From: Pseudomonadota bacterium
GTDB taxonomy: Bacteria > Desulfobacterota > Desulfobulbia > Desulfobulbales > Desulfocapsaceae
DNA length: 46,661 nt
Assembly (NCBI GenBank): GCA_018817385.1
Contig: JAHIUA010000094.1
Span: forward strand, 1 to 46,661
Direction: 5' to 3'
Each line of letters opens with the position of its first letter. Within the stretch, counting starts at the first letter, position 1. This document shows positions 8,185-36,940 of this stretch, piece by piece. The notes under the pieces were generated by a model, which did not search any database, was not told the DNA's origin, and worked only from the letters and a program-made list of their open reading frames with translations. The position numbers and the translations under genes are program-made.

Positions 8185-9090
8185 TTAGCCTCTGCCACGA
8201 GTTTTGGTCTTTCCTGGTTCGGCATTTTTCTCAATAAATTCGATTACAATACCTGCTACATCCAGCTCGGTTGCTTTTTCAATACCTTCCAGGCCAGGTG
8301 AAGAGTTCACCTCCATGACAACCGGACCATGATTTGAGCGTAAGATATCCACCCCAGCCACGTTCAGGCCCATAATTTTAGCAGCACGAACAGCTGTGGA
8401 GCGTTCTTCCGGGGTGATTTTCACTTTCTCAGCCTTTCCTCCCCGATGGATATTAGAGCGGAAATCTCCCTCCTTACCGATGCGCATCATTGCTGCCACA
8501 ACCTTCCCCCCAACCACAAAACAGCGGACATCTTTGGAATCCGCCTCCTTGATAAATTCCTGGACCAGTATATTCTGTTTCAATCCCCGAAACGCCTCAA
8601 TAACACTAACAGCCGCGTTATTGGTCTCGGCTAGGACAACACCTACCCCTTGGGTCCCTTCTAACAATTTTATCACCAATGGTGCACCACCAACAAGGTC
8701 GATCAAGTCCTGGGTATACAGGGTTGCATGGGAGAAACCGGTTACCGGCAGGCCTATTCCCCTGCGAGCCAGAAGTTGCAAAGAACGGAGTTTATCTCGA
8801 GAACGGGAAATGGCCACCGATTCATTGACGGAATAGACGCCTATCATTTCGAACTGCCTGACAACAGCAGTTCCATAAAAAGTAATCGAAGCGCCTATTC
8901 GTGGAATAACCGCACTAAATCCGTCTAAGGGTTCTCCCTTAAAATGGATTGAAGGTTTATGAGAGGTGATATTCATGTAGCAGCGCAACGGATCAACAAC
9001 CTGCACTTCATGCCCCCGTCTTTCGGCACTTTCAACAAGTCTGGCCGTAGAGTAAAGCTCTTTATTCCTTGATAAAATACAAATTTTCAC
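8185..9090 (-). CDS. rimK: RimK-family ATP-grasp glutamate ligase
   Basis: ATP-grasp ligase of 301 residues, matching RimK in length and along its whole sequence: [14 protein letters not shown] at the start, [64 protein letters not shown] and the metal/ATP site [15 protein letters not shown]. coli RimK adds glutamates to the C-terminus of ribosomal protein S6; related LysX and ArgX load amino acids on the carrier LysW. The start is GTG 9090, set by the position of the family N-terminus and a GGAAG ribosome site just upstream. Its usual partner, a RimB-type protease, lies directly upstream but is broken. LysW-like genes lie 1.5 kb away on the other strand, so the acceptor could be S6 or one of those carriers. 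Confidence 0.93.
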
Positions 9091-9091
9091 T

Positions 9092-9594
9092 TTATCTTCC
9101 TTCTTTGTAAATAGTAGGGGACTTCCGTCCTGCCAAGTAAGCAGCAGCAGGGTCAACGCAATAGCTACCAGCTATGGCACTCCGCGCCCCAGGAGCATCC
9201 GAAACAACACGGTACCCCCTGCCAGTCAGTGTCATTTCTACCCGAGTACGGACAGTGCCCAAAACAAGGATGGTGTTAATGACATAGCGCATTTCTTTGT
9301 AGCCGCCGGAGTCGCTGACCATACGACGATCAGCAATGGGTGCCTGGCATGCCAGGACAATGCCTGTTTGTTTCTGTAAGGGGTGAATCTCAAAACGAAT
9401 TTTTGCTATTCCATCTTCCTCAAAAGGTTCCACTGCAAAGGCATGGAGGGCAGAGTTTTTGCCCCTGGGTCGACCTTGGCCTTGATGGCCGGGATACCAA
9501 TATTAGGAAGTGAAAGCCATTCCCGCCACCCCAGCAGCTGTTTGTCTTTCCTGGCTGCACTCCCCCGCCCAACTCCTTTACTCCTTGAGCACAT
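9092..9594 (-). pseudogene. Decayed RimB-type (COG4067) aspartyl-protease-fold gene
   Basis: The family N-terminus is plain ([20 protein letters not shown]), then the frame is lost. Near 9453 one base is missing: the expected [17 protein letters not shown] continues in the next frame. At the G run around 9214-9218 one base is extra, and near 9182 two more are extra; between them the conserved FRMLLGR is readable only in a shifted frame, and VDPA.AYLAG returns in the first frame. The catalytic DTGA motif reads DPGA. At least three indels plus an active-site change make sequencing error an unlikely full explanation. In many genomes this protein is encoded next to RimK; here rimK, which starts 1 base after it, stays intact. 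The exact start is uncertain; ATG 9594 is the earliest candidate. Confidence 0.85.
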
Positions 9595-10549: not shown

Positions 10550-10756
10550 ATGAAAGCCCGAAAATGCCCCATATGTATGGGTGAAATCAAAATTTTCCAT
10601 GATGATGAGCCTGGTGATGTGATTTTTTGTGATGTCTGTGGGGGGGAATACGAACTGTATTCCACCAACCCACTTCGACTCAGGCCTTTAACTTTTGATG
10701 GTGAATATGGACATTACGATGAGTTCGAGTTGAACGAAGGGTACGACCCTTATTAA
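10550..10756 (+). CDS. LysW-like zinc-ribbon carrier protein ending in tyrosine
   Basis: Protein of 68 residues with two CxxC knuckles, CPIC at 6-9 and CDVC at 27-30, followed by GGEYEL and NPLRLRP. The order and spacing match LysW, the amino-group carrier protein of lysine and arginine biosynthesis. LysW ends in EDWGE, and its C-terminal glutamate is the site to which the ATP-grasp enzyme LysX attaches the amino acid. Here that tail is replaced by an acidic extension ending NEGYDPY, so the canonical acceptor glutamate is absent and the last residue is tyrosine. AAGG precedes the start by about ten bases. It is the middle gene of a three-gene set. Structural assignment is good; a carrier role is inferred. 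Confidence 0.85.
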   Translation: MKARKCPICMGEIKIFHDDEPGDVIFCDVCGGEYELYSTNPLRLRPLTFDGEYGHYDEFELNEGYDPY

Positions 10757-10901
10757 CCTCTTACCCGGCAAACGCTTACCTGCGGGAAAGAAAACGATTC
10801 AGCGGCATTGTATGTCTTAAACTCTTTTCAGTTGTATCGTATTATATGGTGCGGTATCTTGCCGCAATTGTCGTTATGCTGTTTCAAAAAAGGATCTTAA
10901 C

Positions 10902-11150
10902 ATGTTTGATCAAACAGGAAAATCAGGAAGCCGAGGAAAACGAATCAGATCGTTTAACCACCAGTTTCGGAGTTGTAAACTCTGCGGAAGCGCCGATGGA
11001 CTTGAAATTTCCAGTTACAACCGAAAGAATGACATTGTATTCTGCCAGGTGTGTGGTGTGAAATATATTTTACAAAGTGTACAACCAGTCAAGCTCCAGC
11101 TTCAGGACGCCCATGCTGCGCAAGACTATTCGATTATGGCCGAGTATTAG
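10902..11150 (+). CDS. Second LysW-like zinc-ribbon protein ending in Glu-Tyr
   Basis: Protein of 82 residues, a divergent paralogue of the preceding gene: a basic N-terminal extension (about 25 residues), CKLC at about 25-28 and CQVC at about 47-50, then GVKYIL and PVKLQLQ in place of NPLRLRP. The C-terminus reads SIMAEY: removal of the final tyrosine would leave a C-terminal glutamate, as in LysW. A clean AAGGA ribosome site lies seven bases before ATG 10902. The 145-base gap to the previous gene holds no obvious terminator. The DUF1704 peptidase gene lies downstream on the same strand. Function unknown; a carrier or modified tag is inferred from the fold and the context. Confidence 0.78.
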   Translation: MFDQTGKSGSRGKRIRSFNHQFRSCKLCGSADGLEISSYNRKNDIVFCQVCGVKYILQSVQPVKLQLQDAHAAQDYSIMAEY

Positions 11151-11403
11151 GAGGTCATTGAAAAAAGTGACGCTTAAGGAAACTGAGCTCAAACGTGCCT
11201 CTCCACACAGTGGAATAGCGAACTATTTTCTCATAACAACTCGTTAACGGGCTGGAATCCAACCGGAGTCACGAGAAACAGTAATCCAAGCTGAGTTTTA
11301 ACTATAACCATTTTGGAGAACATCCTTTTTCCTCCATTCTTGTTTCTTACAACAAGAATGGAGGAAATTTTTTTTCTACAGCTTACCCGCAAGGGTATCG
11401 CAA
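11151..11403 (+). promoter_or_regulatory. 253-nt leader of the DUF1704 gene
   Basis: The space between the second zinc-ribbon gene and the peptidase gene. It begins with GGAGG overlapping the previous stop and a possible 29-codon ORF (TTG 11158 to TAA 11247) whose spacing to that site is too short to be convincing. CTCGT/ACGAG and other short inverted repeats suggest RNA structure. It ends with a strong intrinsic terminator that leaves only 28 bases before the start codon, too few for a promoter plus ribosome site, so the peptidase gene must be expressed by read-through. Confidence 0.55.
11328..11375 (+). terminator. Intrinsic terminator or attenuator 28 nt before the DUF1704 gene
   Basis: A perfect 17-bp stem (11328-11344 with 11351-11367), a 6-base loop, and eight T residues at 11368-11375. 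It would end transcription of the zinc-ribbon genes and also block entry into the next gene unless it is opened. Confidence 0.85.
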
Positions 11404-13395
11404 ATGCAGACCTTATCTGAAGAGGAGATCCTTCTCCGTATTGAACGAAAGGAATCCGTTACAGCAGTTGTCGACACGGGTGCCTTCAGCATCAAGATCG
11501 ATAGATATGTTCCTGCGGTCTGCACAGCAATTCACGCTGGTCATACTCTTCGTAGGCAAATAGCCGGGAATTTGCTGCTGGATGAGGGAAAAAGACAATA
11601 TGAGGAAGATCCTTATACCGGCGTTATGCTGGCCTCATTTCCCATTGTCCTCCAGGGCCTTGACTCACGATATCTCTATGATCTGAACCGTCCGCCCGGG
11701 GAATCCACGCCCAAAGAGTCCTCTGGGAAAACTGTTTGGAACAATTCTCTCTCTGTCAAAGAACAGAAGGAAAACATTTCCCGGCATGACAGCTACTACA
11801 GAGTACTGCATGCCCTTCTCACAGTCCTTGAAGAGATTTTTTCCCGCTGCGTCATCTATGATCTGCACTCCTACAACTACAAGCGCATCACAACGACTAC
11901 ACCACTCTTTAATGTTGGCACCTATTACATTGATCAAAAAACATACCAGCCAGTAGTCAACCATCTAAAAAGACGGCTCCTGGGAACAGAATTTCCGAAT
12001 ATCAAGAACAGAGCGGCCTGTGATGAAGTCTTTCCCGGCAAGGGCTATCAAGCCTTTTTTATTCATAAGAATCACCCCCAGAGCCTTTGCATCCCTCTGG
12101 CAATAAAAAAAGTGTATATGAATGAACTCTCTGGAGTAGCGTACCCGCTGATCCTGGAGGCAGTTATTGAAAGCCTAAAACAGGCACTGAGTTACAATGC
12201 AGCCTACTTCAGCAGAAGATTTGCCGGTAAAAGAATACAGCGCTCACTGTTTTTTGCCGAGGAGAGCAGCAAGGTTATCAGGAGGATAGATGCGGCCCTC
12301 TATAAGATGGCAAAAGGTGTTGACACCCTGCGCTATATCAATCCCGTCAATCTTACCCATGAACGTAACCTTTTTTTTGCAAAACAGTGCAACTATACCC
12401 CCCGCTTTTACTACCGACAATTAAAGATTGATCCTTTTGTCTTTCGTAAACGACTCTATGCCATTCCAGTAGACAATATCCAGGACGTCAGTATTCGGCA
12501 GCTCTACCGCAACACCATTGACATGCTTGCCCAGAAAATCGACCTACTGACCACCATTGGCACTGAACATTTTCTCTACAATTCTCTACGATTCCATGGA
12601 GAGCCAAGGGAAGGAGACATTCAATTGGCCCGTTTTTTTATCGCTGCCCCCCCTATTGAAGAGGAAAATGAGGCGCAGCAATTCAATGCCAGAAAGTGCG
12701 CCAATGCATTCCAAAAGGCAATAAACAAATATGGCTTTCACTGTCAGGTAGAGTTGAGTAGTCGTATGGTGGCCAGGGCCACGGTCAGCAGTGGGCGACG
12801 CAAGGTTCTGATTAATCGCTCTGCCCACTTTACGGAAACGGAAATTCAGGCCCTGATCCACCATGAGCTGGGGGTTCACATGGTGACCACCATCAATTCC
12901 AACACACAGGGTCTGAAGATATTCAAGCTTGGCTTGGCAGGGAATACAGAAACCCAGGAAGGTCTGGCCATCCTCAGTGAGTATTTGTCCGGCAATCTGA
13001 CTCTGGAGCGGATAAAAACATTGGCCCATCGGGTGATGGCTGTCCATATGATGGTCCAAAACTACGATTTCAGCAAGACCTACAAGGCTCTGGCTGATGA
13101 TTTCGGCATGTCAAAAGAAGACGCCTTCAGTATGAGTGTACGGGTATATCGAGGGGGCGGACTTACCAAGGATTATCTCTACCTGACAGGACTGCGTAAA
13201 CTTTTACAGCTCTACCACTCGGGTACGGACCTGCAACCCCTCTTTATCGGGAAGACCTCCATTGCCTTTCTCGACACCCTGAAAGAGATGCTCGACCGAA
13301 AAGTGGTGACCAGTCCGGTTCACCTCCCCCTGGCCTGGAAAATGAAGGTGGAGAGTAATCCCATTCTGACATATCTCCTCCGTTCCGTAATCTGA
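11404..13395 (+). CDS. Fusion of N-formylglutamate-amidohydrolase domain and DUF1704/QEGLA metallopeptidase
   Basis: Protein of 663 residues with two enzyme domains. Residues about 20-285 resemble N-formylglutamate amidohydrolase, a zinc hydrolase: an early IHAGH motif, DSRYLYDLNR, and YDLHSYNYK. Residues about 295-663 are DUF1704 (TIGR02421, QEGLA family), with the zinc motif HExxxH at His487-Glu488-His492 (HHELGVH) and the third ligand Glu519 in QEGLA. Human MATCAP1, which removes the C-terminal tyrosine of alpha-tubulin, belongs to DUF1704. ATG 11404 has an AAGGG site nine bases upstream. Upstream on the same strand lie two small proteins that end in tyrosine. I infer a carboxypeptidase acting on those or similar tails; the bacterial substrate is not known. 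All visible catalytic residues of the peptidase domain are intact. Confidence 0.88.
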   Translation: MQTLSEEEILLRIERKESVTAVVDTGAFSIKIDRYVPAVCTAIHAGHTLRRQIAGNLLLDEGKRQYEEDPYTGVMLASFPIVLQGLDSRYLYDLNRPPGESTPKESSGKTVWNNSLSVKEQKENISRHDSYYRVLHALLTVLEEIFSRCVIYDLHSYNYKRITTTTPLFNVGTYYIDQKTYQPVVNHLKRRLLGTEFPNIKNRAACDEVFPGKGYQAFFIHKNHPQSLCIPLAIKKVYMNELSGVAYPLILEAVIESLKQALSYNAAYFSRRFAGKRIQRSLFFAEESSKVIRRIDAALYKMAKGVDTLRYINPVNLTHERNLFFAKQCNYTPRFYYRQLKIDPFVFRKRLYAIPVDNIQDVSIRQLYRNTIDMLAQKIDLLTTIGTEHFLYNSLRFHGEPREGDIQLARFFIAAPPIEEENEAQQFNARKCANAFQKAINKYGFHCQVELSSRMVARATVSSGRRKVLINRSAHFTETEIQALIHHELGVHMVTTINSNTQGLKIFKLGLAGNTETQEGLAILSEYLSGNLTLERIKTLAHRVMAVHMMVQNYDFSKTYKALADDFGMSKEDAFSMSVRVYRGGGLTKDYLYLTGLRKLLQLYHSGTDLQPLFIGKTSIAFLDTLKEMLDRKVVTSPVHLPLAWKMKVESNPILTYLLRSVI

Positions 13396-16211: not shown

Positions 16212-18470
16212 CTATCCATTCAACAGATGTTTACAATAAACAACCTTGCCATCACCAGGGGCATAAAAATCAGGAAAAACGTTTTGCTGGCCATAGCCAT
16301 TCTGTTCATAGAAGGCACGGGTACCTGCATACTGCCGGCGCTGGGAGGTATCCACATAAATACGTTCTCCTCCACCACTCTTGATGGCACGCTCGGTCTC
16401 CTCCAGGAGTGCTTTACCGATGCCCCTTCCTTGATAATCGGGATGTACAGCTATCCAATACAGGTCATATCCGCTCTGGGTGCAGGGTATGGGGCCGTAG
16501 CAACTGTATGCCGCAAGGCGACCATAATGTTCTGCCATGATAAAATGATACCCACTCGAATCGCCTTTTTCCAATCTCTCTTTGACCAGCTCCTCGGCCA
16601 CATCGATCTCTTCTGGAGAAAAAAATCCGGTTAGGGACACGAGCTTGGCCACCCGCTCCGAATCAGCCTCTTCTACCTCACACCTGTAGGTGACGCCATG
16701 GATCTTATTTTTTGCCGGATGTCGCTTATCAGCCCAATCCTGAACAGCATAGGCGAGTCCTTTGAAAAAACGCATGGCATTGGTGCCCAAGGTGCGGGTC
16801 CGATAGCCTCCCTCCTGAATCACAACCGTGGGCAGGCCAAGGGCGCCTATCATTCTACCATTTTCTTCAAAATCTTTCGCCAGCAGACTCCAGGTACCTG
16901 TTGGATCACCTTTGGCCGGATCAAGGCCGAGGGCAACAATAAGAAAAGCAGGGTTGAAGGACTCGATTTTGTTCAGGGCCTTACTCAGCGCCTCGCGGTA
17001 CTGCGGACCGTCAACACTCTCCGGCAAAGGCAGATTAAGATTGAAGCCATCGCCTTCAACTTCGCCACACTCCTCCTCAAACCCGCTGAAATAGGGGTAG
17101 GCAAAACTCGGATGACCATGAATGGAGATAGTGAGGACATCACCGCGCCGGTAAAAAATTTCCTGGGTCCCGTTGCCGTGATGGTAATCGATATCAAGAA
17201 CTACGGTCTTCCCGAAACCGCTCAGATAATGGGCCGCTACAGCACTGTTATTGAAATAACAAAATCCTCCAAACACTCTGCTTTCGGCGTGATGGCCCGG
17301 TGGTCTGACCAGGGCATAAGCTATTCGCCGACCATTCAGGACCTCGATTGCGGAGGTCAGAGCACAGTCCACTGCGCGGCGAGCTGCAGGATAGGCATTT
17401 CTGTTGATGGGAGTGAAGGTGTCAATACAGTAATAGCCGGCAAGCACCGCCGGTTCCTTGGGCGGCCTCGTTTTGTTGCGTATGGGAAAGATATAGGGAT
17501 AAAGAGACTTCCCTTCATCCATTTCAGCACAGGCATGTTTCAGGTAGTTGACCAGCTCGGGAGCATGCACCGGGTACAGGTGACGGTCCCCAAAAGGCCG
17601 GGGCTTTATCTGCACAAACAGACCGCTTTCTTCCAACTTTTTGAGAATGGACTTGACGCGCACCGGCGATTCTACGTAGCCACGGTCACGGACATGATGA
17701 ATATCATGACGGTCATTGACCACCACGGCAATCTGTTCAGTGGTTCGACTGTCCACCTTGCTGCTGGCGACTTCAGGCTTCACATACATGAATGGGCGCA
17801 GCTGCAGAGGATTGTCTTTGCACGAGCCCACCACCTTTTCCACATACTCCTGCGGACAGAGGTTGGCATACTTGCGTTCAAGTACGGCCCGTACTACCTT
17901 GCGGACAAATACCCGGCCTGGTGGTTTTCCTGCATCCAGTCCATCATAAACCAGGTGCGGCATACAGCTGTCACCGGGGTTAACCGGCGATTCGTAGGCG
18001 GTATTGATAATGGGCCGGGCACCGTACTGTTCATAAAACCTCAAGCGGGCAATGTTCTCCTTGAGAATGGCCTTGTCAGTACACAACTCTTCGTTATCCG
18101 GCAGACATTCAAAAAAGAGACCTTTGACCTTCAGGGCAGCCGACTCCTGGCGCACTCTTTCGTACAGAGCACTGCCGATGCCAGAACCAGCACGTTTGGC
18201 TGTGATAGCAATCCAGTCAAGATAGGTAAAAGCGAGCACTGGTTCATGAAGGAGAATGGCAAAACCATTCACGCGCCCCTTGGCGTTGTCCGCCACAAAG
18301 AGAATGGTGCGAAAGCGTTGCTTGAAGGGATTGCGCAGTTTTTCACCAATAGATTCGACCTCCTCCTCATCTATTTCGCTGAATCGCGTCCGGAGGATAT
18401 CTTTTACCTGGTGGAGTTCTTCCTTGTTAATTGGTATTGCATCATCATAGATACGGCGTATTCGCAGCAT
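16212..18470 (-). CDS. GNAT / histone-deacetylase-type amidohydrolase / GNAT triple fusion
   Basis: Protein of 752 residues that joins opposing activities. Residues about 1-165 are a GNAT acetyltransferase domain (acetyl-CoA loop near GSGIGSALYERV). About 275-600 is a class-II HDAC / acetylpolyamine-amidohydrolase domain: RPPGHHAE near 387, the zinc site DIDYHHGNGTQ near 425-435, the third zinc aspartate in GLDPAKGDP near 512, and the catalytic tyrosine in QEGGY near 550. About 610-752 is a second GNAT domain (HPDYQGRGIGKALLEE). The start ATG 18470 has AAGGA eight bases upstream and lies 13 bases after the stop of the preceding ATP-grasp gene. As the last gene of the KamA operon it probably acetylates and deacetylates an amine made by that pathway, such as beta-lysine or a peptide of it. 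The substrate is inferred. Confidence 0.9.
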   Translation of the reverse strand: MLRIRRIYDDAIPINKEELHQVKDILRTRFSEIDEEEVESIGEKLRNPFKQRFRTILFVADNAKGRVNGFAILLHEPVLAFTYLDWIAITAKRAGSGIGSALYERVRQESAALKVKGLFFECLPDNEELCTDKAILKENIARLRFYEQYGARPIINTAYESPVNPGDSCMPHLVYDGLDAGKPPGRVFVRKVVRAVLERKYANLCPQEYVEKVVGSCKDNPLQLRPFMYVKPEVASSKVDSRTTEQIAVVVNDRHDIHHVRDRGYVESPVRVKSILKKLEESGLFVQIKPRPFGDRHLYPVHAPELVNYLKHACAEMDEGKSLYPYIFPIRNKTRPPKEPAVLAGYYCIDTFTPINRNAYPAARRAVDCALTSAIEVLNGRRIAYALVRPPGHHAESRVFGGFCYFNNSAVAAHYLSGFGKTVVLDIDYHHGNGTQEIFYRRGDVLTISIHGHPSFAYPYFSGFEEECGEVEGDGFNLNLPLPESVDGPQYREALSKALNKIESFNPAFLIVALGLDPAKGDPTGTWSLLAKDFEENGRMIGALGLPTVVIQEGGYRTRTLGTNAMRFFKGLAYAVQDWADKRHPAKNKIHGVTYRCEVEEADSERVAKLVSLTGFFSPEEIDVAEELVKERLEKGDSSGYHFIMAEHYGRLAAYSCYGPIPCTQSGYDLYWIAVHPDYQGRGIGKALLEETERAIKSGGGERIYVDTSQRRQYAGTRAFYEQNGYGQQNVFPDFYAPGDGKVVYCKHLLNG

Positions 18471-18483
18471 ATCACTATTCCTT

Positions 18484-19488
18484 TCAGGCGTGGGGTGGGA
18501 GGAGACTATCTTCCAGTATACGACCAACCGCCTCGGTAAAGGAAAGGCCGGCCTGGTCAAGGGCAGCTGCAAATCCAGCATCCGGCGAAAGGCAGGGGTT
18601 GGTATTGACTTCAAGAATCCAGGGCTGGCCATCACGATCAACCCGAAAATCAACCCGGGCGTAGCCTTTTAAGTTAAAGAGATGCCAACACTGTTTCGAG
18701 AGTTGCACCAGCTTCTCAAGCAACGGCCTCTCATCTTCGCTAAAATCATAACGACGGGGGGTATGGCCATAGGCAAAGGATGTCTCATCCCACTTGGCGC
18801 TGTAATCGACTATGCGCGGCATATGAGTGGAAAAATCATCAAACAGAATCTCAGCCGCAGGCAAAACTTCCACTTCATTTTTAGCGGCCAGCAAAGCAAT
18901 ATTGAATTCTCGACCATCAATGAACTGTTCACCGAAACAGCTGCCGCCAAGGCTGCCCGCTCGCTGCTCAAGAATGCTGAAAAGAGCTGCCGCCGACTCA
19001 GGCTGGAGCACCGATTCTGCATCCATCCCAAGCGAGGCATGTTCCCACTGCGATTTAACGATCCACACCCCATCGACAGGGGTTCCCCCTGTTTTTCCCC
19101 CCCTGCCGACCATTGGCCCGATCCAGGCAGGAGTGGGCAATCCGGCATGGCGGAGAACCTCTTTGGCCTCCGTCTTATTGGAAGTCGTAGCAATGGCCGC
19201 AGCCGATGAACCGGTGTAGGGAAGACGCAGAGCTTCCAGGAGGGCTGGAAAAAGGTGAATCAGGCGCCCATGCCCGTCAAGGGACTCCACCAGATTGAAC
19301 ACCATCTCTGTCCTCGTCTCCCTGAGACGGGCAACGATCTGCTCCAGGTTGAGAGAACAGGGAAGTACTTCCACACTGTGCCCCGATTGAACAAGTGCAT
19401 CACGGACCACTGCAACCTGGGCCAGTACATCCTTGGCATCCGGTCCCTCATCCTCTGTTATGCTGTTATGAACAATAGCAACATTCAT
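18484..19488 (-). CDS. D-Ala-D-Ala-ligase-like ATP-grasp enzyme (second)
   Basis: ATP-grasp ligase of 334 residues. Visible family features are VFNLVESLDGHGR in the N-terminal domain, LPYTGSSAAAIATTSNKTEAK, the FGEQFIDGREFN lid region, and the metal/ATP site ARVDFRVDRDGQPWILEVNTNPCLSPDAG. Such enzymes join a carboxylate, through an acyl phosphate, to an amine. Its ATG overlaps the stop of the upstream ligase gene (ATGA, 19485-19488), so translation of the two is coupled. It differs clearly from that neighbour and is not a simple duplicate. It is unlikely to be the cell-wall Ddl because of its operon partners (KamA, GNAT-deacetylase). The ligated substrates are unknown. Confidence 0.88.
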   Translation of the reverse strand: MNVAIVHNSITEDEGPDAKDVLAQVAVVRDALVQSGHSVEVLPCSLNLEQIVARLRETRTEMVFNLVESLDGHGRLIHLFPALLEALRLPYTGSSAAAIATTSNKTEAKEVLRHAGLPTPAWIGPMVGRGGKTGGTPVDGVWIVKSQWEHASLGMDAESVLQPESAAALFSILEQRAGSLGGSCFGEQFIDGREFNIALLAAKNEVEVLPAAEILFDDFSTHMPRIVDYSAKWDETSFAYGHTPRRYDFSEDERPLLEKLVQLSKQCWHLFNLKGYARVDFRVDRDGQPWILEVNTNPCLSPDAGFAAALDQAGLSFTEAVGRILEDSLLPPHA

Positions 19489-20471
19489 AGCTTAATCCTG
19501 CTGGTGGCCGAGTCCAGAATCATTTGAATAAGAGCAAGATAGGCAATACCTAGCTTGCTACAGAGAATCGGCAGATCTGAGTGTTGCGGATGAATACCCG
19601 CCAGAGGATTTACCTCCATAAACAGTGGTCGGCCCGACTCATCGCAGCGCAGGTCGGCACGGCCGCCATCCCGGCAGCCAAGAACACGCCAGGCAGCAAG
19701 GGCAGTCGCCTCAGCCTCCTGGACAACGGGATCCCGGCTGCTGTCAGCAAGTCGGTATTCAACCCGTTCTTCGCATTCTTCCTTGTTGATATAGGAATAG
19801 AGCCCCTCTTCAGCGCTTTGGAGGAGAATAACTTCCATGGTCCCGATAGCTTTGGCCCCCTTCCCTGTGCCGACAATACCGACAGTAAATTCACGACCCG
19901 GGAGATAGGGTTCCACCAGCACCGCCTGGTGAAAATTCTGAACCAGGCGATCGACTGCATCGGCCAACTGTCCTCCGTCACGAACGATGGAGTCAGGGTC
20001 TATCCCCTTGCCCGTTCCCTCGGCCACCGGTTTGATAAAATATGGAGGAGCAAAGGATATTCCCACCGTATCTGAACCGCTTTCCGCAACCAGAAAATCG
20101 CTCACCGCCACCTGTGCATCCCGCAGCACCCGTTTTGTCATTCCCTTGTGCAGAGTCAGGCTCATGACCAAGGGATCCGAAAAGGTGTATGGAATGTTAT
20201 ATACGTCTAGAATAGCCGGGATCTGTGCCTCACGGCCAATGCCGTACATGCCCTCGGCAATGTTAAATACCAGATCCCAGCGCCTGCCCTCTGCCAGGGC
20301 CTGGATGAGCTGCCTGGCATGGCCAATGCGCTCACACTGATGCCCCAGCGTGGTCAAGGCGGATTCTATGGCCTCAATGGTGTCGTCTCGATCGAATTCA
20401 GCAGTTTCCAGCTCGGAAAATCCCATTTCAAGATAGGCAGAGCGCAGATCGTATGTTAACCCTATTTTCAT
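19485..20471 (-). CDS. D-Ala-D-Ala-ligase-like ATP-grasp enzyme (first)
   Basis: ATP-grasp ligase of 328 residues. Seen in the sequence: MKIGLTYDLR at the start, LVFNIAEGMYGIGREAQIP, IPYTFSDPLVMSLTLHKG, PYFIKPVAEGTGKGI (ATP-binding loop), VEPYLPGREFTVGI, and the metal site GRADLRCDESGRPLFMEVN followed by PLAGIHPQHSDLP. I chose ATG 20471; the in-frame TTG 20489 lacks a ribosome site, and GGAAG lies about eleven bases before the ATG. It is the second gene of the KamA operon, 73 bases after kamA, and overlaps the next ligase gene by four bases. Two non-identical ligases in a row suggest two successive peptide-bond formations or a heterodimer. Substrates unknown. Confidence 0.88.
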   Translation of the reverse strand: MKIGLTYDLRSAYLEMGFSELETAEFDRDDTIEAIESALTTLGHQCERIGHARQLIQALAEGRRWDLVFNIAEGMYGIGREAQIPAILDVYNIPYTFSDPLVMSLTLHKGMTKRVLRDAQVAVSDFLVAESGSDTVGISFAPPYFIKPVAEGTGKGIDPDSIVRDGGQLADAVDRLVQNFHQAVLVEPYLPGREFTVGIVGTGKGAKAIGTMEVILLQSAEEGLYSYINKEECEERVEYRLADSSRDPVVQEAEATALAAWRVLGCRDGGRADLRCDESGRPLFMEVNPLAGIHPQHSDLPILCSKLGIAYLALIQMILDSATSRIKL

Positions 20472-20544
20472 TTTTTTTGTGTCTTCCAAAAAGGATGTAT
20501 GGAGTATGCGCGGCCGAGGCCGCGCATCAATGGTTCTTCCGCGC

Positions 20545-21849
20545 TCAGATCACGTCGGGATAGCGAAACAATCTATCTTCATAGTTGCGCAGGAGAAGGT
20601 CAGTACCCTGCTTTCCGACAACTGATTCCGGCAGGAGTGGAATCTTTCCTCCTCCTCCGGGGGCGTCGATAACATAGGTGGGAACGGCATAGCCGCTGGT
20701 GAAGCCCCGCAAGCCCTGAATAACTTCCAGACCTTTTTCCACCGGAGTCCGAAAATGGGCCGAGCCGGTGATCGGATCGCACTGGTACAGATAATAGGGG
20801 CGAACACGCATACGCATAAGACTGTGCGTCAGGTTCTTCATGGTCTCCACATTATCATTAATACCACGCAACAGCACGGTCTGGGAACCGAGAGGAATTC
20901 CAGCATCAGCAAGCCTTGTACATGCCTTGACAGTCTCCGTTGTACACTCATCCGGATGGATGAAATGGAGACTCATCCACAGAGGATGATAACGCCTTAA
21001 TATTTTTACCAGTTGTGGTGTAATACGCTGCGGCAGTACGGCAGGGACCTTGGTGCCGATACGAATGATCTCGACATGGGGGATCTGCCGCAGATTCTTC
21101 AGCAGCCATTCCAGACGTTCATCAGCAAGGAGCAAGGGATCACCGCCGGAAAGCAGGACGTCACGGATGGATTTTGTGCGGCGGATATAGTCCAGCATCT
21201 GCTCAAAGCGAGCCTTGCTTGCACGTACGGCTCCATGTCCCACCACCCGAGAGCGGGTACAGTACCGGCAGTACGTTGAGCAGAAATCATGGACCAGAAA
21301 AAGTGCCCGATCGGGATAGCGGTGCACAAGTCCGGGAACCGGACTCTGATTTTCCTCGCCCAAAGGATCATCCGCCTCGCCAGGCCCTCTGACGAGCTCG
21401 CTGGTTGTGGGTACCACAGTGCGGCGCAGAGGCTGCAGGGGATTGGCAGGATCGAGGAGGCTCAGGTAATAGGGAGTAATGGCCAGGGGCAATTTAATGT
21501 CAGGACCATTAGCCGCCATTTGTTCTTCCGGGGAAAGCTGCAAAAATTTGCCAAGCCGTTCTCCTCCGCGGATGCGGTTGGCCACCTGCCAGTGCCAGCT
21601 GTTCCATTCTTTGGCGGTGACATGAGGAAAGAAGGTGCGACGAAATTTTTTTCTCTGTACTGTGGATAGGGAAAATTCTTCAACAAGCGAAGGAAAGGGA
21701 ATAATTGTGGCGGGAGAATTACGAAGACAATCGAGTGTGCCTAACGCGTTAACAGCCTTACCTGGAGGTTCTCCATCCTCCTCCAGAAATGAGCTGGATA
21801 TTCCTGAAATATGATCTGAAAAAGCGGGGACTTCGATTTGCGCCTGCAT
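20545..21849 (-). CDS. kamA: KamA-family lysine 2,3-aminomutase (radical SAM, PLP)
   Basis: Radical-SAM, PLP-dependent aminomutase of 434 residues. The iron-sulfur motif CSTYCRYC (Cys-x3-Cys-x2-Cys) is followed by TRSRVVG. The PLP lysine lies in DAPGGGGK near the C-terminus. The aspartates equivalent to the two that hold the substrate side-chain amine in lysine 2,3-aminomutase are both kept (YQCDP and VIDAPGGGGK), which favours lysine or a lysine-like substrate over glutamate. Length suits a full aminomutase rather than the shorter EF-P enzyme EpmB. The start has an excellent AAGGAG site. It heads a minus-strand operon with two ATP-grasp ligases and a GNAT-deacetylase fusion. The likely product is beta-lysine for a modified peptide or an acetylated osmolyte; that end product is inference. 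Confidence 0.92.
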   Translation of the reverse strand: MQAQIEVPAFSDHISGISSSFLEEDGEPPGKAVNALGTLDCLRNSPATIIPFPSLVEEFSLSTVQRKKFRRTFFPHVTAKEWNSWHWQVANRIRGGERLGKFLQLSPEEQMAANGPDIKLPLAITPYYLSLLDPANPLQPLRRTVVPTTSELVRGPGEADDPLGEENQSPVPGLVHRYPDRALFLVHDFCSTYCRYCTRSRVVGHGAVRASKARFEQMLDYIRRTKSIRDVLLSGGDPLLLADERLEWLLKNLRQIPHVEIIRIGTKVPAVLPQRITPQLVKILRRYHPLWMSLHFIHPDECTTETVKACTRLADAGIPLGSQTVLLRGINDNVETMKNLTHSLMRMRVRPYYLYQCDPITGSAHFRTPVEKGLEVIQGLRGFTSGYAVPTYVIDAPGGGGKIPLLPESVVGKQGTDLLLRNYEDRLFRYPDVI

Positions 21850-34886: not shown

Positions 34887-35593
34887 GAGGTACCTTCTGC
34901 TATCAGTTTCAGTTCCAGGAAAACATCACTTTGTAACAAACGGCCACTACTCCATTTAAGCATATTTACCTTTTTTGTGATAGAAACTTCGGAAAATTAT
35001 CCAGGAGAACTCTCTGGGTAAAATTCATCTGTTCAGGAACACTGCAGGGTGCACGTTTACCTGAATATGGAGAACGATGCTGCAAAAGATCCTTAGCCTC
35101 TGTCCCAATTCTCCTGACTACCAGAACCAACATCTTGCCAACAATCCAGACCATAAAACAAGAGTTATCTTGATTTGCGATTTTCGCTTTGTTCCATGAG
35201 CCAAAAACCAACTTGTCCCCTGCATCTCCCTCCCTGTATGCCAAACGAGAAAAGGACATCAGCCCAAACAAGGGGACAGGCCAACATGAGAACATTCAAA
35301 CAGCCACCTGTATATTTGAGAAACCTTATTCCTGGTGAGGTCAGGGGAAGAGTCAAACACTGATTCAGTGGAGGTTCCCTCAGTAAAGATGCATTCGAGT
35401 TGGACCTGCACCTCCCATGAAGACAGTTGGAAAGTGCCTGATGATCCAGAGCAAAACCTTCGTCAGGGAAACATGGTCAGGGCTTTTCTATTTGAGACGC
35501 CTTGTTTGTTCTTGTTTACTTGCTTTTACAGCACTATTTTGATAGTGCTTCTATTTGCCAAGAAAAATCCAACAAGAAAGGCTCAGGACAACA
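34887..35593. other. Intergenic region upstream of argA
   Basis: About 700 bases between divergent genes with no supported gene. A 7-bp hairpin (AGCACTA...TAGTGCT) lies near 35531-35550, about 50 bases before the argA start. Confidence 0.4.
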
Positions 35594-36940
35594 GTGAATG
35601 ATTTCCCTTTAAAAAACAACTCGTTTGAGACCGGAGTAAGTGGCATCAGAGAGGTATTCAACTACCTGAAGCGCTACAGGAAGAAGACCTTTGTGCTGAA
35701 GATAGAGGACAGCCTGCTCCTTAATCCCCTGTTTCCCATGCTCATGAAGGATATCATCCATCTCCATGACATTGGAATCAACATTGTCATCATTCCCGGG
35801 ATCCGCACCACCATTGAGGAAAAACTTTCCAGAGCCAACATATCCACCCGGTTTGTCAACGGAATGCGGATCACCCCTGCCGAGGCCCTTCCCTTTGTAA
35901 AACTTGCAGCCATGGAGGTTGCCGAGACCATTATCTCCCACCTTGCCGCAGGAGGTGCCAACGGCATCATGGGCAACTGGATCAGGGCCAGGGCCATAGG
36001 GGTGAGCCAGGGGGTGGACTACGAATTTACCGGATGTATCGAAAAGATACGGTCAGACATCGTCAGTCAGCTCCTTGAGCAGAATTTTATTCCGGTGATA
36101 TATAACATCGGATTCAATTCCACAGGCAAGAGTTACAATGTCAACTCCAGCCACATCACCTGCAGGCTCTGCCAGGACCTTGACGTGATCAAGCTCTTTT
36201 TCATCGGCAGGGATGAGGGGATTCCCGTTGCAAACCTTCAGTGCCCCGAGGGGATCGAAACCCATCCCTCCGGCATTTTTTCCAACCTTGATCTGGCCCA
36301 GGTTGATTATCTGCTCAAACACAACAGGGACGTGCTGGAACTGGACTATCGCGAATATCTGGAAAATGCCCTTGAGGCGACCCGGGCTCAGAACGGGGTC
36401 AACCGGGTACATATCATCTGCGGAACGAGGGAGGGTTCCCTGTTGCAGGAGGTCTTCTCCAGCATGGGACTTGGTACCATGATCTATAGGAACAAGTATG
36501 CCCATATCAGGGTTGCCACCTGTGAAGATGTTCCCGAGATTCTCCATCTCATGGACGGTTATGTCAAAAAGGGCAATCTGGTATTACGTTCCGAGGCCGA
36601 GCTCAACGAGCAGATCACGGATTATTACATCTACGAGGTGGACATGTCCGTGTATGGCTGCGGTGCCCTCTACCGCCAGGATGACGAAACTGGCGAAATA
36701 GGAGCCATCAGCGTCAATCCATCCTATAAATCCAAGGGGGTCGGCAGGGGGATCATGGAATTTCTCATCGACCTTGGACGCAAAAGAGGACTCAAGCGGT
36801 TGTTTGTTTTGACCACCCAGACTTCGGACTGGTTTTATAACTTCGGTTTTATCCAGGGAACTCCTGCCGATCTGCCCCAGGGCAGAAAGGCAAGGTACAA
36901 CAACGAACGAAACTCACGGGTACTGCTGCTTGATCTTTAG
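35594..36940 (+). CDS. argA: N-acetylglutamate synthase (amino-acid kinase plus GNAT)
   Basis: Classical ArgA of 448 residues that makes N-acetylglutamate from glutamate and acetyl-CoA, the first step of arginine synthesis. Residues about 1-295 are the amino-acid-kinase-like domain that usually binds arginine as feedback inhibitor (KTFVLKIEDSLL, NIVIIPGIRTTIEEKL). About 300-440 is the GNAT domain (ISVNPSYKSKGVGRGIMEFLIDLG, TTQTSDWFYNFGF). I chose GTG 35594 because AGGA lies five bases upstream and because the ArgA N-terminus aligns there; TTG 35557 in the same frame is less likely. Codon use is GC-richer than in the flanking DNA. No other arginine gene is adjacent. Confidence 0.92.
   Translation: MNDFPLKNNSFETGVSGIREVFNYLKRYRKKTFVLKIEDSLLLNPLFPMLMKDIIHLHDIGINIVIIPGIRTTIEEKLSRANISTRFVNGMRITPAEALPFVKLAAMEVAETIISHLAAGGANGIMGNWIRARAIGVSQGVDYEFTGCIEKIRSDIVSQLLEQNFIPVIYNIGFNSTGKSYNVNSSHITCRLCQDLDVIKLFFIGRDEGIPVANLQCPEGIETHPSGIFSNLDLAQVDYLLKHNRDVLELDYREYLENALEATRAQNGVNRVHIICGTREGSLLQEVFSSMGLGTMIYRNKYAHIRVATCEDVPEILHLMDGYVKKGNLVLRSEAELNEQITDYYIYEVDMSVYGCGALYRQDDETGEIGAISVNPSYKSKGVGRGIMEFLIDLGRKRGLKRLFVLTTQTSDWFYNFGFIQGTPADLPQGRKARYNNERNSRVLLLDL

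Follow-up and report, generated by a model that had tools for sequence, protein, structure and literature searches.

LysW-like zinc-ribbon genes beside a fused FGase-MATCAP peptidase in Desulfocapsaceae, and the co-occurrence of their family with carboxynorspermidine synthase

Introduction

Contig JAHIUA010000094.1 of a Desulfocapsaceae bacterium (46,661 nucleotides, called the window hereafter) carries two small LysW-like zinc-ribbon genes and, downstream, a gene for a fused FGase-MATCAP peptidase, in which FGase denotes an N-formylglutamate amidohydrolase-type domain and MATCAP the family also called DUF1704 or QEGLA. Several described systems resemble this locus in part. True LysW proteins are hallmarked by an EDWGE-type tail with a terminal Glu for loading, and FGase-type enzymes cleave acyl-glutamate amides. 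Clusters of FGase, QEGLA, and ATP-grasp genes were reportedly described in the 2009 amidoligase survey of Iyer and colleagues. The human MATCAP proteins, or TMCPs, remove C-terminal residues as well as added glutamates from tubulin (PMC10499314), and in Pseudomonas RimB removes the glutamates that RimK adds to RpsF (PMC11957791). Since human TMCPs and RimB remove glutamates, glutamate removal is as plausible an activity at this locus as tyrosine removal. NCBIfam names the bacterial QEGLA family only for its effect on flavohemoglobin expression, and only two papers of the open-licence PMC library name DUF1704 or QEGLA.

Here, we compare the locus with these systems and with its relatives in the family, phylum, and beyond. 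The result most worth following is new: the LysW-like family co-occurs with carboxynorspermidine synthase. Among the titles listed from the open-licence literature, a scope outside which most subscription papers fall, none ties LysW to polyamine synthesis.

Results

The elements of the locus, in window coordinates, are the following:

10550 to 10756, plus strand: LysW-like zinc-ribbon protein 1, 68 amino acids, ending NEGYDPY; 47.1 bits against PF21344 (cut-off 27)
10902 to 11150, plus strand: LysW-like zinc-ribbon protein 2, 82 amino acids, ending IMAEY; 13.6 bits against PF21344, below the cut-off of 27
11328 to 11375, plus strand: terminator-like hairpin (11328 to 11367) with a 17-bp stem and 8 T, separating small gene 2 from the peptidase gene
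11404 to 13395, plus strand: FGase-MATCAP (DUF1704/QEGLA) fusion, 663 amino acids
11512 to 11970, plus strand: N-terminal FGase domain, residues 37 to 189; 58.6 bits against PF05013 (cut-off 28.9)
12862 to 12879, plus strand: HExxxH zinc motif, peptidase residues 487 to 492
12958 to 12960, plus strand: third ligand Glu519, QEGLA motif

The open reading frames (ORFs) stand as they were first annotated, with both small genes upstream of the peptidase gene on the same strand. Judged from their sequences, the small proteins are members of a LysW-like zinc-ribbon family with acidic, often aromatic-ended tails, which was seen in the Desulfobacterota family and order that the window belongs to and, beyond these, in a small number of genomes of the phylum. 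Protein 2 keeps the four cysteines of the CxxC...CxxC pattern, aligns with the family, and matches the family's own profile, in the building of which it was used, at E=4e-25. A paralogue with an EEDEY tail likewise remains under the PF21344 cut-off of 27 (24.3 bits). The family shares with LysW a small zinc-ribbon domain (PF21344 is passed by protein 1) and an acidic tail, and its profile matches the LysW structures 5k2m and 3wwl. In contrast to LysW, the tails in the window end in DPY and AEY rather than in an EDWGE tail with its final Glu; proteins 1 and 2 score 33.5 and 15.3 bits against an NCBIfam cut-off of 53.2, and another LysW model gives 34.5 against 75; the nearest ATP-grasp enzyme in the window is RimK and not of the LysX type (129.9 bits against LysX_arch, below its cut-off of 275.6); and the genes often located near the family are those for sigma-54 regulators and, in a subset of genomes, for polyamine synthesis. 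Of the large ORFs that lie up to 6 kb away in the window, none was identified as a lysine- or arginine-pathway gene. A true LysW identity was rejected on the basis of tail, NCBIfam score, and neighbours; EDWGE tails are present at other loci of the search (L095, L096, L105, L106, L108).

The peptidase gene encodes, in addition to a MATCAP/DUF1704/QEGLA domain (residues 324 to 659), the fused N-terminal FGase domain that was absent from the first-pass annotation. The peptidase scores 352.8 bits against PF08014 (cut-off 27) and 376.8 bits against the NCBIfam QEGLA model TIGR02421 (cut-off 338.65). The active site that had been read as intact is so: H487, E488, H492, and E519 are invariant in two alignments (5/5 and 7/7 fusions), and the HExxxH and EEG motifs line up with human KIAA0895L (PDB 7z5g). 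The enzyme thus has the Pfam family and the conserved HExxxH plus third Glu in common with MATCAP1/TMCP1 and TMCP2 (KIAA0895L, KIAA0895), and differs from them by its fusion to FGase, the lack of an expected tubulin substrate, and a human specificity (Y, F or A after Glu; PMC10499314) that fits only some of the tails found here.

A LysW-like match was obtained in 27 of the 93 genomes of the window's family, a set that includes incomplete genomes; this count rests on one protein query at E<=0.01, so that distant members may be missed and the weakest matches, such as the doubtful one in G091, may be false. Carboxynorspermidine synthase (E<=1e-40) is present in 37 of the 93, namely in 24/27 genomes with a LysW-like match versus 13/66 others (p=5e-10). 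Among genomes at least 90% complete the figures are 20/22 versus 10/39 (p=7e-7), and among those that are also at least 3.3 Mb in size 20/22 versus 8/28 (p=1e-5). Kinship was handled only by within-genus permutation and by one rpoB tree of 20 genomes of the window's genus: when labels were shuffled within genera, none of 20,000 shuffles gave a value as high. A control comparison of LysW-like with FGase-like genes gave p=0.39. LysW-like genes also co-occur with RimK (p=0.0006; reached by about 1 in 1,000 within-genus shuffles) and with MATCAP (p=0.007; 0.075 in larger complete genomes; reached by 1/20,000 within-genus shuffles), and PF08014 was matched in 6/93 genomes of the family. Among the genomes with this RimK, 8/12 are devoid of MATCAP.

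As to the gene neighbourhood, a sigma-54 activator-like gene (activator domains confirmed in one member) lies within 6 kb of the LysW-like gene in 16/33 genomes and within 300 bases in 14/33, while agmatinase, speA, the synthase, and nspC are each found within 6 kb in 5/33. In same-order genomes of another family, an agmatinase-like gene adjoins the LysW-like gene in three of five cases (G209, G373, G144; not G106, G263). Other surroundings were also observed. In G065, a genome without MATCAP, a LysW-like gene is followed on one strand by RimB and by a RimK with an added TrkA-C domain (L128 9817-12098). In five genomes of genus g10 (L121, L122, L126, L062, L063), a LysW-like gene ending in DEPY, DEPA or DGSY adjoins a conserved 635-amino-acid gene, which from its start we take to be uvrC; carboxynorspermidine synthase is encoded somewhere in the genome in 11/15 g10 genomes.

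The window's genome (G000, 5.4 Mb) has its nearest named matches in Desulfocapsa and Desulfofustis metagenome-assembled genomes, Desulfocapsa being a member of the Desulfocapsaceae, Desulfobulbales. Within the genus, the same 4 of 20 genomes encode MATCAP, RimK, LysW-like proteins, and the synthase. The rpoB tree, in which partial sequences are included, places G000, G007, and G018 in one clade and the adjacency of MATCAP and LysW-like genes at two separate places in the genus. The gene order of the window is shared by G018. In G007, RimK, RimB, and peptidase are present and the intact LysW-like pair is located elsewhere in the genome; a gene-2 remnant with a broken frame and an internal stop (L004 1085-1310) precedes the peptidase. 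Because the arrangement recurs in G018 and a decayed copy of gene 2 lies at the same place in G007, the observation of the pair beside the peptidase is more than chance. G022 carries a LysW-like pair near RimK and, 30 kb off, a separate same-strand run consisting of ATP-grasp, FGase-MATCAP, agmatinase, a LysW-like gene, speA, carboxynorspermidine synthase, and nspC. The LysW-like gene of this run is a different paralogue, ends in EEDDY, and is situated 1.1 kb downstream of MATCAP; the ATP-grasp (glutathione synthetase type), agmatinase, speA, and nspC all score above their NCBIfam cut-offs. No RimB match was obtained around RimK in the stretch fetched from G022. A conserved small protein of about 90 amino acids adjoins the EEDEY paralogue in 4/4 genomes (L054 8251-8529, L053 9714-9983, L056 9768-10022, L055 11648-11971), and its L054 copy matched no Pfam or NCBIfam model.

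The first-pass annotation had proposed that the C-terminal Tyr of the small proteins is a cap that the peptidase removes. A terminal Tyr is indeed enriched in the LysW-like family (17/41 members versus 6/349 background ORFs, the latter being mechanical, uncurated ORFs of at least 200 amino acids), but it does not track the peptidase: Tyr ends account for 9/18 members in MATCAP genomes and 8/23 in family genomes without MATCAP (p=0.36), and any aromatic end for 11/18 versus 8/23 (p=0.12). The value of 0.36 includes two doubtful ORFs that were above the script threshold, L054 12027-12212 (ending YY, MATCAP group) and the G091 match (ending D, other group); without them, the counts are 8/17 versus 8/22 (p=0.53). 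Tyr as a mark of MATCAP genomes was thus rejected. Tyr-ending members are encoded in eight genomes without any PF08014 match, and seven further LysW-like members elsewhere in the phylum all end in Asp. Since Tyr ends do not follow the peptidase, terminal Tyr is a trait of LysW-like subgroups and no mark set for this enzyme.

The five intact LysW-like proteins encoded within 1.2 kb of a MATCAP gene end in Y (three), F (one) or D (one). Tyr is not retained in the direct orthologues of G018, which end in F and D. The relatives of protein 1 end in DSF (G018), SYF (G007), and GQI (G022), those of protein 2 in AED, SSY, and SFG, respectively, and another paralogue has an EEDEY or EEDDY end in 5/5 copies, which come from the four genomes of the genus that encode MATCAP. 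Removal of Tyr or Phe would expose Glu (AEY), Asp (EEDDY), Pro (DPY) or Ser (DSF). For the human enzymes, Y, F or A after Glu is an acceptable end, but human TMCP1 left tails ending -GEDY, -GEQY, and -EEEY unmodified (PMC10499314). By the human TMCP1 rule, DPY and EEDDY would remain uncut and EEDEY would be a doubtful substrate, whereas AEY keeps the needed Glu; the bacterial enzyme may differ.

Elsewhere, we examined 15 MATCAP loci, which were hand-picked and do not constitute a census (nine of 127 matching plasmid records, three loci, and G064, G459, and G062). Fourteen of them are without the window's close fusion and come from Photobacterium (3), Shewanella, Vibrio, Sinorhizobium, Ensifer, Rhizobium, Shinella, Aminobacter, Roseateles, Pseudoalteromonas, the phylum (G459), and the family (G062); the fifteenth, from G064 of the family (L060, the same locus as L075), has the fusion at 58% identity. 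FGase is fused to MATCAP or lies within one gene of it in 13 of the 14, and a glutathione-synthetase-like ATP-grasp adjoins MATCAP in 11. The module of FGase, MATCAP, and this ATP-grasp is thus the usual setting of the peptidase among the loci examined, and LysW-like neighbours were found only in the window's lineage and in G022. Relative to the FGase-QEGLA-ATP-grasp clusters, the window protein is a fused form of the first two components, and the ATP-grasp lies directly upstream in G022 and Photobacterium; in contrast, the window's genome, like G007 and G018, yielded no match to this ATP-grasp at E<=1e-15, and RimK is found nearby instead. Agmatinase and SpeA were not matched (E<=1e-10) in the fetched stretches of the 14 loci. 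The LysW-like profile had no match in three genomes of the Photobacterium and Shewanella loci, a search that was run without a positive control and shows little. In 395 genomes drawn evenly from the phylum of the window, MATCAP occurs in 2 and the same LysW-like profile (E<=0.001) matched 63, eight of them more strongly than 1e-13 and several of the others being true LysW or unrelated zinc ribbons. In Vibrionaceae (L134, L076, L078), a DUF413 (maoP) gene precedes the FGase-MATCAP gene. It carries this annotation in Vibrio, and two Photobacterium loci have a similar small ORF at the same place, with the ATP-grasp between it and FGase-MATCAP.

Further features flank the pair in the window:

8185 to 9090, minus strand: RimK-family glutamate ligase, 465 bits against NF007764 (cut-off 331), transcribed away from the small genes
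9092 to 9594, minus strand: RimB (retropepsin-like) gene, frame broken in the assembly into two overlapping pieces, each matching PF05618/NF052261
10138 to 10521, plus strand: small protein without a Pfam or NCBIfam family, encoded ahead of small gene 1 and conserved in G018 (50% identity to L057 8681-8998)

As in the RimABK system of Pseudomonas, homologues of RimK and RimB are thus found close to the locus; in G000, G007, and G018, RimB-RimK are transcribed away from the MATCAP gene, with RimK no more than 2.4 kb from it. The window differs from that system in its broken RimB frame, which could be real decay or an assembly error, while RimK is intact; G018 (RimB at L057 7567-8088) and G007 have both genes intact. 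Moreover, LysW-like genes beside RimB-RimK, as seen in G065, are not mentioned in the available part of PMC11957791. Neither the broken RimB frame nor the hairpin had been noted in the first-pass annotation. The hairpin of the window (z-score -6.8) was matched in stability by 0/200 shuffled sequences, and G018 has a hairpin with a paired base change and without a clean T-run at the same place. Because of this terminator-like element, the small genes and the peptidase gene need not share one transcript. Farther away, four genes in a row on the minus strand (16212-21849) encode a lysine 2,3-aminomutase-like radical SAM protein, two D-Ala-D-Ala-ligase-like ATP-grasps, and a histone-deacetylase-type/GNAT fusion, an arrangement suggestive of a pathway leading to a beta-amino-acid peptide or an acetylated amine. 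An amino-acid-kinase/GNAT protein resembling N-acetylglutamate synthase is encoded at 35555-36940, 22 kb from the locus.

Discussion

The explanation that we favour, tentatively and at well short of an even chance, combines two roles: the small proteins would serve polyamine synthesis, and FGase-MATCAP would trim their acidic tails. The small proteins may act as tail-bearing carriers or adaptors, which carry, recruit or report for the polyamine pathway via their tails. FGase-MATCAP represents the fused version of the ligase/hydrolase module seen in the comparison above, which is widespread and the chemistry of which would be to make and break an amide or peptide bond; most likely, the enzyme would relieve the tails of the small proteins of residues or of groups that a ligase has added, such as Glu. 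The hydrolase gene stands beside LysW-like genes in the window's lineage and, separately, in G022. In favour of this explanation are the co-occurrence with the synthase, the sigma-54 activator-like and polyamine genes near members of the family, the G022 run, the four genomes of the genus in which all these genes are found together, the module seen at MATCAP loci elsewhere, and the removal of both end residues and added glutamates by human TMCPs (PMC10499314).

Several observations weigh against this explanation. LysW-like carriers tend to have larger genomes, and genome size accounts for part of the co-occurrence with the synthase; nor were the controls flat throughout, as the comparison with distant glutathione-synthetase-like ATP-grasps yielded p=0.089, or 0.047 when the more complete genomes were taken. 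Neither speA nor the synthase is found within 6 kb of the LysW-like gene in 28/33 genomes, and the polyamine link is therefore mainly one by genome and not by neighbourhood. MATCAP is absent from 22/27 LysW-like genomes and hence not part of the core function of the LysW-like family. The sole NCBIfam match of the G022 synthase is the carboxynorspermidine synthase model, at 418.8 bits against a cut-off of 800, and the G022 run together with the arrangement in G000, G007, and G018 amounts to two events only. The lack of LysW-like ORFs at all 15 MATCAP loci elsewhere and the hairpin of the window count against it too. Finally, a structure model of FGase-MATCAP built on seven sequences reached a mean predicted local distance difference test score (pLDDT) of 57.7, with values below 50 in the stretch 487-519; at so low a mean, the model permits no statement on tail binding.

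A serious rival, although in itself rather unlikely, is that the genes are neighbours by accident or by a gene order specific to a small lineage, FGase-MATCAP belonging to a widespread three-gene module and hydrolysing, independently of the pair, an amide in a small molecule or in some other protein, and the LysW-like pair serving something else. It would account for the absence of LysW-like ORFs from the fetched stretches of all 15 MATCAP loci that belong neither to the window's close clade nor to G022, for the hairpin that divides the small genes from the peptidase gene, and for G007, which kept the peptidase while the adjoining LysW-like copy decayed; in addition, G000, G007, and G018 form a single clade. 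This explanation has difficulty with G022, where, on a separate branch, another LysW-like paralogue lies in the same-strand run with MATCAP, and with the presence of MATCAP and LysW-like genes in exactly the same genomes of the genus. We consider it improbable that FGase-MATCAP is instead an eraser for RimK, which removes RimK-added glutamates from S6 or other acidic tails in place of the broken RimB. The proximity of RimK to MATCAP beside a divergent RimB-RimK pair, the broken RimB of the window, and the lack of a RimB match around RimK in G022 would fit this role, as would the deglutamylase activity of human TMCPs (PMC10499314) and the RimB precedent on RpsF (PMC11957791). However, RimB is intact near MATCAP in G018 and G007, the genes are often found apart (in addition to the RimK genomes without MATCAP, 2/6 MATCAP genomes are without this RimK), and the S6 tails of the 19 genomes in which S6 was found are acidic with varying ends that are not uniformly Glu.

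The cycle proposed in the first-pass annotation, according to which MATCAP takes a Tyr cap off the carriers and an ATP-grasp ligase then loads the Glu that has become exposed, is weakly supported and in our view very unlikely. The enrichment of Tyr in the family, the constancy of the EEDEY/EEDDY end, the union of ligase, peptidase, and EEDDY protein in G022, and the Y or F ends of 4/5 intact MATCAP neighbours speak in its favour, as does the within-genus co-occurrence of LysW-like genes and MATCAP, though at two places of the tree only; in view of the G022 run, a link between peptidase and tail may still exist. However, Tyr does not track MATCAP, the G018 orthologues deviate, and among the four aromatic-ended neighbours Glu would be exposed only from AEY; human TMCP1 spares several Tyr-ended tails (PMC10499314), and the absence of LysW-like ORFs from MATCAP loci elsewhere, the decayed neighbour in G007, and the hairpin count against this cycle as well. 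A small-molecule role, in which the module attaches glutamyl groups to polyamines or related amines and takes them off again and the LysW-like proteins regulate or scaffold the pathway, has a low probability. It is in line with the G022 run, which joins ATP-grasp, FGase-MATCAP, and polyamine genes, and with the cleavage of acyl-glutamate amides by FGase-type enzymes, but the 14 MATCAP loci had no agmatinase or SpeA match and the peptidase lies outside the polyamine locus in G000, G007, and G018.

Returning to the combined explanation of polyamine-serving small proteins with trimmed tails, a more far-reaching version can be formulated, which we regard as a long shot: a tail-editing carrier system in polyamine synthesis, in which LysW-like proteins with tubulin-like EEDEY tails would carry or recruit polyamine intermediates, an ATP-grasp would write on these tails, and FGase-MATCAP would erase. 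G022 gathers the ligase, FGase-MATCAP, the EEDDY protein, and the polyamine genes of such a system in one gene run. If true, bacteria would possess an equivalent of tubulin tail editing, and polyamine synthesis would have a route by way of carrier proteins. If the peptidase does act on the tails, a native substrate of the bacterial MATCAP/QEGLA family would be at hand, along with a bacterial process that parallels the editing of tubulin tails. The statistical tie between LysW-like genes and carboxynorspermidine synthesis points to a part of the polyamine metabolism of these bacteria that has so far gone unrecognised, and provides a testable gene set.

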